Below the pieces are notes generated by a model. That model did no database searches and had not been told where the DNA came from. It saw nothing but the letters and a program-made list of their open reading frames with translations. From Alphaproteobacteria bacterium (GTDB taxonomy: Bacteria; Pseudomonadota; Alphaproteobacteria; Micavibrionales; Micavibrionaceae): DNA of 64,000 bases. Below, piece by piece: positions 14,600 to 18,897 of this stretch (position 1 is its first letter; each line of letters opens with the position of its first letter). A program made the translations under genes and the position numbers. Location: NCBI GenBank assembly GCA_002690045.1, contig NZDE01000010.1:124001-188000 (forward strand). Direction: 5' to 3'.

Positions 14600-14629
14600 A
14601 AAGGGCCTATTATAAGGCCCTTTGTTTTA
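14600..14629 (+). terminator. Intrinsic terminator after the MipA-type gene
   Basis: Perfect 9-bp stem AAAGGGCCT / AGGCCCTTT (14600-14608 and 14615-14623), then TTTGTTTT. It reaches the 3' end of the convergent gene at 14627. Confidence 0.85.
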
Positions 14630-15745
14630 TGATTGATGTGGCTTCGGGGTTATTTTGAAGCTGTGTAGGTAAACATTTTCTTTGCCGCGGGCGAGGGTTT
14701 CTTTTGCCTCATAAATTTTCGACGTTTTGCTAATGTTATTTACCTGTGTGTTCACCAAAGATGTGCTCGCTTGGTATGAGTTAATCATGGTGAAAGAGAA
14801 GCCTGCTTCGATGTCTTTGCAGATTTCTTCGAATGAACCGTCTTCAACTGTGTCGTCTTTTGCGTAAACGCGGAAAGACTTCTTAGCTTTGATCACATGG
14901 GCATAATTACGTGTTGCCGGATCAAACTTTGGATCATCCATTTCATAGGCGAAGAGATCATCAATAACCGCGCGATCATTTTTATCAAGCGGGTTACCGT
15001 TTATGTCTTCAATGCGAATATCTGGTGAATTGAGGAGCATAAAGTGCCATGCATTCATCATAAATTCAGCCAAATATGTGTTCGCATAGGCTTTTTGTAG
15101 TGTAGATTGCTTTTCAATGGCGTTGTAACCAATAACGGCATAGCCGTCATTCGCAGCAAGGCGGAAAATATCACGCAAAGCTGATTGTGTCTCGGTTTCA
15201 GGGTATGAATCTTTCGCTAGTTTTTCAATGTTAGTAATCAATGAACCAACACACATAACGAGATTCTTTTTGTAATCTTTGCCCCAACGTTCAGGGGCTT
15301 TTTTATCAATTTCTTGGAACGGGCCCGTAATTGATGACACTTTAACGTTCTTTGCAGCCATTTCATCTGCATGATCGTTAAATGTTTGTACCGCCGCTTG
15401 GTTGAACTTTTCAGCGATATCGATAAATGTTACGGATTTTAGATTTTTTAGGTGTTTGATAACATGCCATTCTTTTTCACCGAAGGCAGAGCCGGGGCCG
15501 ACAATAACAGCATGCTCAACATCTTGCATTTCGTTGGCGATTGCTTGACCTTGTTCGGAAAGGATCTCACCTTCTTTCCAAAAGCTAGGGTAGTTTTCGT
15601 TATTACGAATAAATTCGTTAAACTTAGCACCACCACCATTTAGATAGGCGTATCGACCACCATTGGCCAAGTTTTGACCAAACAACATATCTTTTGTTGC
15701 TTGTTCGATGCCTTCCAAATGTTTATCTTGCTTTTTCTTTGCCAC
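14627..15745 (-). CDS. SAM-dependent methyltransferase, EgtD/Methyltransf_33-like
   Basis: About 372 residues. A Rossmann core carries the SAM-binding loop IVGPGSAFGEKE (about 95-105 of this start), followed by the acidic strand end VTFIDIAEKF. The N-terminal helical part, with an NENYPSFWKEGEIL stretch, resembles the ELPEYYPTRTE region of histidine N-alpha-methyltransferases (EgtD family). The C-terminal substrate motif of true EgtD is not clear, so ergothioneine synthesis should not be assumed. A GTG at 15743-15745 is chosen because AAGG lies 9 bases upstream; the frame is open 14 codons further. It is 17 bases behind the XRE gene and surely co-transcribed with it. Confidence 0.6.
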   Translation of the reverse strand: MAKKKQDKHLEGIEQATKDMLFGQNLANGGRYAYLNGGGAKFNEFIRNNENYPSFWKEGEILSEQGQAIANEMQDVEHAVIVGPGSAFGEKEWHVIKHLKNLKSVTFIDIAEKFNQAAVQTFNDHADEMAAKNVKVSSITGPFQEIDKKAPERWGKDYKKNLVMCVGSLITNIEKLAKDSYPETETQSALRDIFRLAANDGYAVIGYNAIEKQSTLQKAYANTYLAEFMMNAWHFMLLNSPDIRIEDINGNPLDKNDRAVIDDLFAYEMDDPKFDPATRNYAHVIKAKKSFRVYAKDDTVEDGSFEEICKDIEAGFSFTMINSYQASTSLVNTQVNNISKTSKIYEAKETLARGKENVYLHSFKITPKPHQS

Positions 15746-15762
15746 GTCCACACACCTTATAT

Positions 15763-16401
15763 TTAGAAACTCACCGCGCGTGCCCACATATCTTCAAACT
15801 GAATACGATAGGCTGCGTTAATTGCTGGATAGTTCATAACAATGACGGTTGGTTCGTTTTCGAACAACATAATCGCCAATTTTTCACCAAAAGCATAAAA
15901 TGGTACAGATGCAAAAAGATCAGACGGTAAACGTTTGTATTCTGCGTAGCTATCACCTGGCGCGTAATCGTCATTCTCACGAATAAGAATGCGGAAGTTT
16001 AGCCCTTCGATAGATTCCATACGGTTAATATGCGTTTTGGCATAGTCACCTAGCCAGCGTATAAAGTCCCGCTCATTCACGTTGCTGACAACAACGTTTT
16101 TGTTTTCACTTGTCTTTAATGTCTCATAAATAGTGTCATAGAAGCTAATCAAACCATTACGGCCTGTGAAAACACGAACATCACCACTGCGAATTTTTAC
16201 CCCTTCAAGGCCAACGAATTCGATACCGCCGTATTCAAATGTCGCCTTAATATTGGCAATTGTACTTTCACGTGGAGTTGTTGTTCCGTTTTCAATGCTT
16301 CCGATTGACGTTGCGGATATGCCCGTACGGTCAGATAGATCTGCTTGCGACCAGTTAAGTAGTCCGCGTGCGCCTCTTATTTGTGCTGCCGTTATGGTCA
16401 T
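15763..16401 (-). CDS. XRE-family helix-turn-helix regulator with C-terminal sensor-like domain
   Basis: 212 residues. Residues 5-55 form a Cro/CI-type helix-turn-helix (QIRGARGLLNWSQADLSDRT, then SIGSIENGTTTPRESTI). The remaining 150 residues are alpha/beta (SGDVRVFTGRNGLISFYDTI, NKNVVVSNVNERDF, a basic/acidic loop, then MLFENEPTVIVMNYP). They look like the C-terminal PLD-like sensor domains seen in some XRE/TrmB regulators; the ligand is unknown. It heads a two-gene operon with the methyltransferase. GAGGGAAC lies just upstream of the ATG, and the TGAAA-N6-TTTCA repeat before it may be its own operator. Confidence 0.75.
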   Translation of the reverse strand: MTITAAQIRGARGLLNWSQADLSDRTGISATSIGSIENGTTTPRESTIANIKATFEYGGIEFVGLEGVKIRSGDVRVFTGRNGLISFYDTIYETLKTSENKNVVVSNVNERDFIRWLGDYAKTHINRMESIEGLNFRILIRENDDYAPGDSYAEYKRLPSDLFASVPFYAFGEKLAIMLFENEPTVIVMNYPAINAAYRIQFEDMWARAVSF

Positions 16402-16635: not shown

Positions 16636-16664
16636 TTGACATAAGTGTAATAAAAGCGTAAAAA
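16636..16664 (+). promoter_or_regulatory. Sigma-70-type promoter of the orphan sRNA
   Basis: TTGACA (16636-16641), 17-base spacer, TAAAAA (16659-16664); predicted transcription start near 16671. Same hexamers and spacing as the promoter at 8124. Confidence 0.6.
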
Positions 16665-16670
16665 ACAACT

Positions 16671-16793
16671 ATTGTTTGTATATATGTGTCCTTACTTGAT
16701 ATGAAAACGCAATTTTCTTTCAATGACAGGCGATATATCAGATTTCCCCACACAACTTGGCCGTTGGATATTATTTCCAACGGCCTTTTTCTT
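16671..16793 (+). ncRNA. Predicted small RNA, about 123 nt
   Basis: A consensus-like promoter is followed about 90 bases later by a near-ideal intrinsic terminator, with no protein-like frame in between; short ATG frames lack a Shine-Dalgarno and run through the terminator. Both neighbours are on the minus strand, so this plus-strand terminator belongs to no known gene. Not recognised as 6S, SRP or tmRNA. It contains a single-stranded-looking CCCCACACAA segment just before the terminator stem, a possible seed. Confidence 0.55.
16759..16793 (+). terminator. Strong intrinsic terminator (plus strand only)
   Basis: Perfect 10-bp stem GGCCGTTGGA / TCCAACGGCC (16759-16768 and 16776-16785), 7-base loop, then TTTTTCTTT. 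On the opposite strand there is no T tract. Confidence 0.9.
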
Positions 16794-16857
16794 TGCTTGC
16801 ACGGTACGTTTTAGGCTGCGTTGCTGCACGGCGCAATGTGCTAACTAGTTGATTTCC

Positions 16858-18897
16858 CTACGCTGCCATAAGGTTTTCTCGGCGGAGGAGGGCTTCAGGG
16901 TCGGCGTCACGGCCACGGAAGCGGCGGTAGAGCAGATCAGGGTCTTCACTGCCGCCTTTAGCCAAAACCTCTTTACGGTATTTATCGGCTAGGGCTTGGT
17001 TATATAGGCCTTCTTCTTTAAAATACTCAAAAGCATCAGCATCTAAAACTTCTGCCCATTTATAACTGTAATAGCCCGCAGAGTAGCCGCCTGCGAAAAT
17101 ATGACTGAAGGATGAAGATGTTGGCCCGCCATAGCGGTTAAAGAGTTTACAGTCTTTAATGGCGTCATCCTCAACGGCGATGACGTCTTTGACTTTTTCT
17201 GGGATGCCGTTATGCCATGCCATATCCACAAGGCCGAGGCTCACTTGGCGTAGGCCAAACATGCCGATCATGAAGTTCTTGGCTTCAACCAATTTTTGAA
17301 TAAGCTCTTCAGGGATTTTTTCGCCGGTTTCGTAATGTTCGGCGAATAGGTCCAATGTTTCTTTCTCATAGGTCCAGTTTTCTTGAAGCTGTGAAGGCAG
17401 CTCAACAAAGTCCCACAAAACATTTGTACCTGATAGGGAACGGTATTGCCCCTCGGCAAGAAGCGCATGAATAGCGTGGCCCAGTTCATGGAATAGGGTT
17501 GATACTTCATCATGCGTCAATAGGCTTGGTTTATCACCGGCTGGTTTTGTGAAGTTACATACAATTGAAATCACAGGGCGATGAACCTCACCTTTATATA
17601 GGCCTTGGTCACGATAGCTTGTTTTCCATGCACCTGGCTTTTTACCAACGCGTGGATAAAAGTCACCATATAATGTGCCAATGAAGCTGTTGTCATTTTT
17701 ATCATAGACATCATAGGTCACGACATCCTCATGCCAGACATTATAGGATTCATTTTTGGTGAAGCTAATATTGAATAACTTGCTGAAATGGGTGAATGCG
17801 CCTTCAAGAACTTTGCTCATTTGGAAATAGGGGCGCAGGTCTTCGCCTGAGAATTTAAAACGCTCTTGTTTCAGCTTCTCACTATAATAAGATGCATCCC
17901 AAGGCTTCAGATCATCATCAAGGCCTTGGCTTTTAGCGTAGTCTTTTAGCTCGGCCAACTCTTTTTCCGCAGCAGGTTTGTAGCTATCTTGTAGTTTCTT
18001 GAGGAAATCCATCACCGTTTCAGGAGATTTCGCCATGCGGCGCTCCAGCACATAATCGGCGTGGTTTTTGTAGCCGAGCAGTTTTGCACGTTGGTCGCGT
18101 AGAGTGACAATCTGTTCGATTAGTGTAGCATTGCTATATTCTTCACCCCATGCGCGGTTTGAAAAGGCTTTCCAAATTTTTTCACGTAGATCGCGTTTGT
18201 CTGAAAATGTGATGAATGGGCCGTAGCTTGGGTAATCAAGTGTAAACAGCCATTTGCCTTCATGGCCTTTATCGGCAGCCGCGTGCGCTGCGCCATCAAT
18301 GGCACTTTGTGGTAGGCCGGACAGATCATCTTTATTGTCAATTAGTAATTCAAAAGATTCTGAAGATTTGTTGACGTTATTTGTATATTCGGGGCCAAGC
18401 TTGGACATGGCTTCGTTAATTTTGCGTAGTTCCGCTTTACCGTTGTCGTCAAGTAGGGCGCCACCACGGACAAAACCTTTATAGCTGTTGGTGAGTAGCA
18501 TATCTTGTTCAGCATCAAGGCTTAGCTCATCTTTACGGTCATAAACGCTTTTGACACGTTCAAATAATACAGGGTCCATTGCCACGTCAGATGATAATTC
18601 CGCGCAAAGTGGACCAATTTCCATGGCGAGGTTTTGTAGGCCATCTGTGCCGTTAGCGTAAAGCTGATTATAGAATATAGATGTAATGATATCGAGCGTT
18701 TCGCTAGATGTTTCCATCGCGATGATAGTGTTGTCAAAATCTGGCGCATCAGTGTTGGCTTTGATGGCCTCTATATTCGCGCGCGCTTCTTTTATGGCTT
18801 CTTTTACCGCAGGCAGAAAGTCGTCTTCTTTATATTGTGGGAAGTCCGGCGCCATGTTCGGTAATGTTGATTTTTGTAGAAGCGGATTGTTGCTCAT
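16858..18897 (-). CDS. dcp: M3 family peptidyl-dipeptidase (dipeptidyl carboxypeptidase)
   Basis: 679 residues, matching Dcp (about 680). The zinc site is FHELGHAIH near residue 470, with the third ligand Glu and the DFVELPSQLQENW segment downstream that is typical of the M3A Dcp/oligopeptidase A group. The C-terminus includes the FSHIFAGGYSAGYYSYKWAE substrate-loop region. The enzyme removes C-terminal dipeptides from oligopeptides. There is no signal peptide, so it acts in the cytoplasm. The ATG has AAGGAT upstream. Dcp is favoured over PrlC because of length and the ELPSQ motif, but the two are close relatives. Confidence 0.92.
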   Translation of the reverse strand: MSNNPLLQKSTLPNMAPDFPQYKEDDFLPAVKEAIKEARANIEAIKANTDAPDFDNTIIAMETSSETLDIITSIFYNQLYANGTDGLQNLAMEIGPLCAELSSDVAMDPVLFERVKSVYDRKDELSLDAEQDMLLTNSYKGFVRGGALLDDNGKAELRKINEAMSKLGPEYTNNVNKSSESFELLIDNKDDLSGLPQSAIDGAAHAAADKGHEGKWLFTLDYPSYGPFITFSDKRDLREKIWKAFSNRAWGEEYSNATLIEQIVTLRDQRAKLLGYKNHADYVLERRMAKSPETVMDFLKKLQDSYKPAAEKELAELKDYAKSQGLDDDLKPWDASYYSEKLKQERFKFSGEDLRPYFQMSKVLEGAFTHFSKLFNISFTKNESYNVWHEDVVTYDVYDKNDNSFIGTLYGDFYPRVGKKPGAWKTSYRDQGLYKGEVHRPVISIVCNFTKPAGDKPSLLTHDEVSTLFHELGHAIHALLAEGQYRSLSGTNVLWDFVELPSQLQENWTYEKETLDLFAEHYETGEKIPEELIQKLVEAKNFMIGMFGLRQVSLGLVDMAWHNGIPEKVKDVIAVEDDAIKDCKLFNRYGGPTSSSFSHIFAGGYSAGYYSYKWAEVLDADAFEYFKEEGLYNQALADKYRKEVLAKGGSEDPDLLYRRFRGRDADPEALLRRENLMAA

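Follow-up and report, generated by a model that had tools for sequence, protein, structure and literature searches.

The plus-strand unit at 16636-16794 of the window (the whole stretch of 64,000 nucleotides analysed here) is probably a stand-alone gene for a regulator-linked small RNA (sRNA), acting in trans through base pairing and belonging to a new family of the Micavibrionaceae whose genes are usually transcribed divergently from genes for XRE-type regulators. The initial annotation had proposed an orphan sRNA gene, and this proposal gains support from the absence of any Rfam match at gathering score and from the conservation of the unit in relatives; we infer that a transcript of about 123 nt is made from it. 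What is added here is that the unit is one of a whole group of sRNA genes that have an XRE gene as divergent partner, and that the 5' end of its RNA is complementary to two other mRNAs. The sequences themselves show a conserved promoter, the conserved motif CCCCACACA, a covarying terminator, the linkage to XRE genes and, in the genus of the window, the long complementarity of the 5' end to two other genes; the coordinates are collected in Table 1.

Table 1. Features of the sRNA unit and of its flanking genes, in window coordinates.
Feature	Position	Strand	Basis
Promoter: TTGACA (16636-16641), 17-nt spacer, TAAAAA (16659-16664)	16636..16664	+	Read from sequence
sRNA of about 123 nt; both ends predicted (start at 16670-16672)	16671..16793	+	Distance from -10, terminator, conservation, fold z -4.24
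Intrinsic terminator (16759-16785) and T-rich tail	16759..16794	+	Perfect 10-bp stem, 7-nt loop
R1, TATTGTTTGTATATATGTGTC, RNA 5' end	16670..16690	+	Identical in three species; complementary to pilZ leader and ftsH-paralogue 3'UTR
Putative pairing partner of R1 in the free RNA, just 5' of the C-rich stretch	16734..16745	+	Predicted in 3/3 species
Segment R2, CCCCACACAACTT, family signature, predicted single-stranded	16746..16758	+	Fold and family comparison
XRE-type (HTH_3) regulator, divergent partner gene	15763..16401	-	Pfam PF01381, E 5.9e-9
Peptidase M3 gene, other flank	16858..18897	-	Domain match and neighbourhood

Direct reading bears out the architecture described in the initial annotation, that is, a TTGACA/17/TAAAAA promoter and a perfect 10-bp terminator with a U tail, both on the plus strand and lying between two minus-strand genes, which are here assigned to an XRE/HTH_3 regulator and a peptidase M3. 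The tail of the terminator reads TTTTTCTTTG on the plus strand, and the minus strand past the hairpin reads AAGTTGTGTGGGG, with no T tract, as had also been noted; the remark that the RNA does not look like 6S, SRP or tmRNA agrees with the suggested Rfam search, which at gathering score returned no family in the 64-kb window and none in 20 loci of members of the family. Taken singly, promoter and terminator are not beyond chance, since shuffles of the 1.5-kb region contain on average 3.4 promoter-like and 1.7 terminator-like sites; the promoter of the window was missed by the consensus scan because its -10 hexamer lacks the final T. The fold predicted for 16670-16792 is beyond chance, with a z score of -4.24 and none of 200 shuffles as good, and the conservation of the unit settles its reality. 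Downstream of the XRE gene lies a minus-strand gene (14627-15787) whose product belongs to the histidine-specific methyltransferase family (PF10017) and scores far under the EgtD equivalog cut-off.

In a search of 58 genomes, own genome (G000) included, clear orthologues at the DNA level were found only in two congeners, G001 (E 1.1e-40) and G002 (E 2.9e-14), where the units sit between the same two genes as in the window and the promoter hexamers occupy the same place (TTGACA/TAGTAA in G001, TTGACA/TTAAAA in G002). The promoter and the CCCCACACAA segment, the conservation of which had been proposed as a check, are indeed kept in relatives. Conservation among the three species is most striking in two blocks, the 5'-terminal 20-21 nt of the RNA and TATATCAGATTTCCCCACAYAACTTG; in the terminator stem, four of the ten pairs are changed on both sides, in a compensatory manner, and none is broken. 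In each of the three congeneric RNAs, R1 is predicted to form a 5' stem with the segment preceding CCCC; this stem is without covariation support because its core pairs never vary in the three species. A second XRE paralogue (L236, on contig C13 of G000; L238, on contig C10 of G001) has a very short divergent unit, composed of TTGACA, CACACA and a terminator, and the short unit of L238 is weakly matched (E 0.0016) by the covariance model described below.

The wider family emerged from the distribution of the XRE protein, homologues of which are present in 45 of the 58 genomes at E<=1e-15 (117 hits); 88 of the 117 upstream regions were used, weaker hits and the contig-end loci L084 and L095 being left out. 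The motif CCCCACA[CT] occurs on the divergent strand of 25 of these 88 regions and on the other strand of 4, and a terminator with CACA just 5' of it is found on the divergent strand in 26 versus 3 on the other. The plan of the family comprises a TTGAC promoter, a 5' domain that varies between genera, CCCCACACA, a short linker often containing AACTT, and a terminator, the whole being divergent from the XRE gene; the window itself displays a TTGAC promoter, CCCCACA[C/T], a terminator and a divergent XRE homologue. The motif CCCCACACA is far more conserved than terminator function requires; the C-rich stretch of the window reads UUUCCCCACA, and variants recognised by eye are CCCCAGACAAAACTT (G018), CCCCAATAAACT (G008) and CCCACACACAC (G010). 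In 25 aligned units, the TTGAC promoter lies 72-244 nt from the XRE start, with an A-rich -10 region in most; these units were picked for having TTGAC, so that their alignment cannot count units devoid of it. When the sequence is sought anywhere in the first 460 nt, TTGAC is present in 24 of the 26 regions with a terminator and CACA, versus 32 of the 62 others. Only 9 of 25 members have a palindrome near the -35 hexamer that is better than those in shuffles, and the window's own unit is not one of the nine.

Full units are shorter than 150 nt in 16 of the 20 cases measured. Among 20 members with a predicted fold, 13 have, as judged by eye, a 5' domain that closes just before the C-rich stretch; others do not, and in the predicted fold of L082 the CCCC is paired. 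Two CCCCACAC stretches, about 40 nt apart, occur within one unit in L090 (G023) and in L075 (G026). Three genomes (G024, G016 and G033) seem by eye to keep adjacent XRE and M3 genes without the unit, which apparently can therefore be lost.

By eye, 22 of the 35 regions with CCCCAC were accepted as members, and 17 of them entered the model alignment (A6), L075, L077, L081, L082 and L220 being omitted for long or odd terminators; the stem covariation score of the 17 members is above that of all 500 shuffles. The covariance model of the 3' domain (model R2) matches 42 of the 142 genomes of the order at E<1e-4, in 24 genera, all of them in the family of the window, while the best match outside this family within the order has an E value of 5.4e-4. 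An XRE homologue is found within 3 kb in 29 of 30 fetched loci; in L282 the best-scoring XRE homologue of the locus is a different XRE gene, the linked one being contained in the XRE homologue set. The linkage extends to loci outside the training set, 14 out of 15 of which have a divergent XRE homologue, with 216-429 nt between it and the point where the matched domain begins at its 5' end; these 14 include four genera without any training member (g8, g50, g51 and g52). The exception is G087, where the M3 peptidase gene adjoins; this gene adjoins the sRNA also in G001, G002, G015 and G077. In G009, the M3 gene is about 550 nt away and no XRE gene occurs in the fetched 3 kb.

In an even sample of the class (385 genomes), 11 genomes match model R2 at E<=0.001, three of them in the family and eight outside it. 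In the seven inspected loci of these eight (all but G402), tblastn finds no XRE or M3 homologue, so that members outside the family gain no support there. One match outside the family, in G290 (E 4.2e-5), reads CCCTCACACACA and may yet be a member. In the genus g87, which belongs to another family, a conserved GTCCTCACACACGCGACTTTGCCGGCC and a terminator are present in three loci (L301, L303 and L304 in G174, G302 and G399, respectively), only part of model R2 being matched; the sequence TTGCGAATCATTCTCA upstream of these units resembles an iron box, and the units possibly represent a separate sRNA.

When own genome was searched with the 271-nt query, the two top-ranking matches other than the unit itself were exact copies, 20 and 19 nt long, of the 5' end of the RNA. 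Exact copies of the 19-mer number three in G000, two in G001 and one in G002; with up to three mismatches the counts become five, four and five, versus three, one and one for the backward control. A scan of 84,980 species' genomes for R1, which may leave out own genome, returned seven stretches, three in records of G001 and G002 and four in unrelated organisms, two of the latter four being near-identical coding-like sequences.

The first candidate partner is the leader of a PilZ-domain gene (pilZ), behind a TTGACA-N17-TATAAA promoter common to the three species. The R1 site, which in G000 ends 127 nt upstream of the ATG, stands out from its surroundings as conserved and is unchanged in G000 and G001; in G002 it carries four substitutions at positions 1-18, all compatible with G.U pairing, and a mismatch at position 19. 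The contiguous pairs, G.U included, between the leader and nt 1-20 of the RNA amount to 20, 20 and 18 in the three species, and leaders of other genera reach at most 12 with the three congeneric RNAs. In the 12 members tested from other genera, the longest contiguous complementarity between the RNA and its cognate pilZ leader measures 9-12, no better than with foreign leaders; the whole-leader duplex energy places the cognate pair first in one case out of 15, the congeners ranking 4th, 3rd and 7th of 14. By these run lengths and energy rankings, pilZ as a target of the whole family is unsupported outside the genus. Of the 28 loci read, four have the sequence TGTGGG in the 30 nt that precede the pilZ start, namely the three congeners and G013.

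The second candidate partner is the 3'UTR of an ftsH paralogue. In G000 it holds the exact 19-mer, which lies between convergent genes at 25 nt downstream of the stop codon; in G001 the site is 21 nt past the stop and has two mismatches, and in G002 it is absent, a terminator-like hairpin being present instead. The short-duplex energies of R1 with its partner sites range from -21.1 to -26.1 kcal/mol. Just 3' of the ftsH-paralogue site there is a hairpin without a clear T tract (L003 1520-1570 in G000, L065 1012-1052 in G001), the arms of which differ, being CTCCTGCAAA/TTTGCAGGAG in G000 and CGCCTGCAA/TTGCGGGCG in G001. After the site, G001 has a 149-aa ORF without Pfam match (L065 1074-1523), and G000 has no ORF of at least 80 aa on that strand.

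Two further candidates were set aside. A 20/21 antisense match of segment R2, in the leader of a 205-aa ORF of G000 (L004), is not kept in G001 and G002 and was treated as chance or lineage-specific; R1 as the promoter of a phage RNA polymerase was given low priority, only one of the three exact copies of G000 lying in a phage-like cluster. This podovirus-like cluster (L168 5081-16821, G000:C11:452000-471900; L137 in G001; L170 in G002) is kept in the three species and comprises genes for a terminase, tail proteins, a major head protein (PF19821) and a T7-type capsid assembly protein (PF05396), with 62-98% identity for the genes found in each of the three; the PilZ gene is antisense between the assembly-protein and head-protein genes. 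The cluster is possibly a fixed prophage or an element resembling a gene-transfer agent.

The R1 repeats might be explained at the level of DNA, as an operator immediately 3' of the sRNA and pilZ promoters that is bound, e.g., by the XRE protein encoded next to the sRNA gene, in which case they would mark a regulon and not RNA pairing, and the sRNA gene would still stand. The location of R1, at the sRNA start and roughly 30 nt downstream of the predicted pilZ start, would suit a repressor, the copies are identical over 19 bp, and an XRE gene is next door; nevertheless, R1 has by eye no evident dyad beyond TATATA, and the ftsH-paralogue site of G000 follows a stop codon between convergent genes (although in G001 an ORF follows), so that an operator appears unlikely. 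Pairing of the RNA is favoured by the antisense register of both partner sites, as base pairing needs, by the substitutions of the G002 pilZ site, which retain G.U pairing, and by the 3'UTR position of the second site. Were the unit transcribed without any function in trans, either serving for insulation as a promoter-terminator cassette or arising as a by-product when the XRE regulator controls its own gene, the variability of the 5' domain between genera would be readily understood, as would the short unit at the second XRE paralogue, which is little else than promoter, CACACA and terminator; against this explanation, which we regard as decidedly unlikely, stand the conservation of CCCCACACA far beyond the needs of a terminator and R1, which is identical in three species and has antisense partners.

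It is most improbable that the unit encodes a small protein. An ORF-like stretch can be seen by eye before the CCCCACAC motif in two distant members, L211 (G035) and L220 (G032); however, most measured units are under 150 nt (see above), and in the window the plus-strand ORFs of at least 20 aa starting within the unit overrun the terminator, which fits the description of the unit as being without a protein. Affiliation to a known sRNA family, as a divergent member of aR8/MmgR (RF00519), was also considered. Among models for alphaproteobacterial sRNAs, suhB/MmgR gives the region its best sub-threshold score in a lax Rfam search (23.5 bits, E 0.011), and the order of parts, i.e. hairpin, single-stranded C-rich stretch and Rho-independent terminator, is that of aR8 in the predicted folds and the terminator. 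Yet the gathering cut-off of 41 bits is exceeded in none of the 58 genomes, weak matches to the model turn up in 13 of 14 control genomes, the 20 member loci lack a match at gathering score, and the aR8 10-mer UUUCCUCCCU is absent from all 88 XRE upstream regions, own included. No known family is reached at threshold, and the lead to aR8, once examined, was rejected, such membership being judged highly unlikely.

For the new XRE-linked family, a mechanism can be outlined. The XRE protein would likely set the level of the sRNA by acting on its promoter from the shared intergenic region; as to the C-terminal domain of this protein, a PDB sequence search matched mainly the HTH part. The sRNA would then act in trans through base pairing, R1 pairing in the genus of the window with the leader of the PilZ-domain mRNA and with the 3'UTR of the ftsH-paralogue mRNA. 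In the free RNA, R1 is predicted to be folded against the segment directly 5' of CCCCACACA, so the 5' domain would be opened by pairing with a target. If CCCCACACA works like the C-rich stretch of aR8, it may provide another site for pairing: it could form 6 bp with the TGTGGGAG that precedes each of the three pilZ start codons, and through it the sRNA might pair with further mRNAs, either repression or stabilisation of the targets being conceivable. More tentatively, the XRE gene and its divergent CCCCACACA sRNA could form a duplicated two-gene module of the Micavibrio lineage, in which a constant 3' shared seed is combined with a fast-changing 5' domain for lineage-specific targets; in the genus of the window the module would be tuned to pilZ (20 perfect pairs, within the podovirus-like cluster) and to the ftsH paralogue, the opening of the 5' domain upon pairing serving as a switch.

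Among the papers returned by a literature search for Micavibrio and small RNA, none has either term in its title or abstract, so sRNA control would seem to be a new subject for this predator lineage (Micavibrio being placed under Bdellovibrionota in the NCBI taxonomy), and a search for an alphaproteobacterial sRNA divergently transcribed from an XRE gene found no paper; the available part of the M. aeruginosavorus genome paper (PMC3189940) reports RNA-Seq of attack and attachment phases and makes no mention of sRNAs. With its constant regulator gene as partner, its strong signature and two candidate target sites of great length, the new family provides direct, testable handles on post-transcriptional control in this lineage, and it can be compared with aR8-like sRNAs to see how such C-rich RNAs originate or take each other's place.

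Among known systems, the gene arrangement recalls AbcR1, an sRNA whose gene is divergent from that of its LysR-type regulator. In both cases the sRNA gene lies back-to-back with the gene of a DNA-binding regulator, probably its controller; in the new family, in contrast, the regulator is an XRE and not a LysR-type protein, and its control of the sRNA is putative. The closest likeness in the RNA itself is to aR8 (RF00519 suhB; MmgR of Sinorhizobium meliloti; SisA-D of Caulobacter crescentus), with which the new family shares a weak hairpin, a single-stranded C-rich stretch and an intrinsic terminator, as well as several copies per genome in some species. The two differ in the stretch itself, which is CCCCACACA in the new family and UUUCCUCCCU in aR8, and the score is under the Rfam cut-off. 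In the case of SisA, the conserved C-rich 10-mer pairs with the target 5'UTR and with the sponge CrfA, according to the accessible text of PMC12559287; in the same text SisA-D have no shared upstream motif, whereas the new family is linked to XRE genes and has a conserved promoter.
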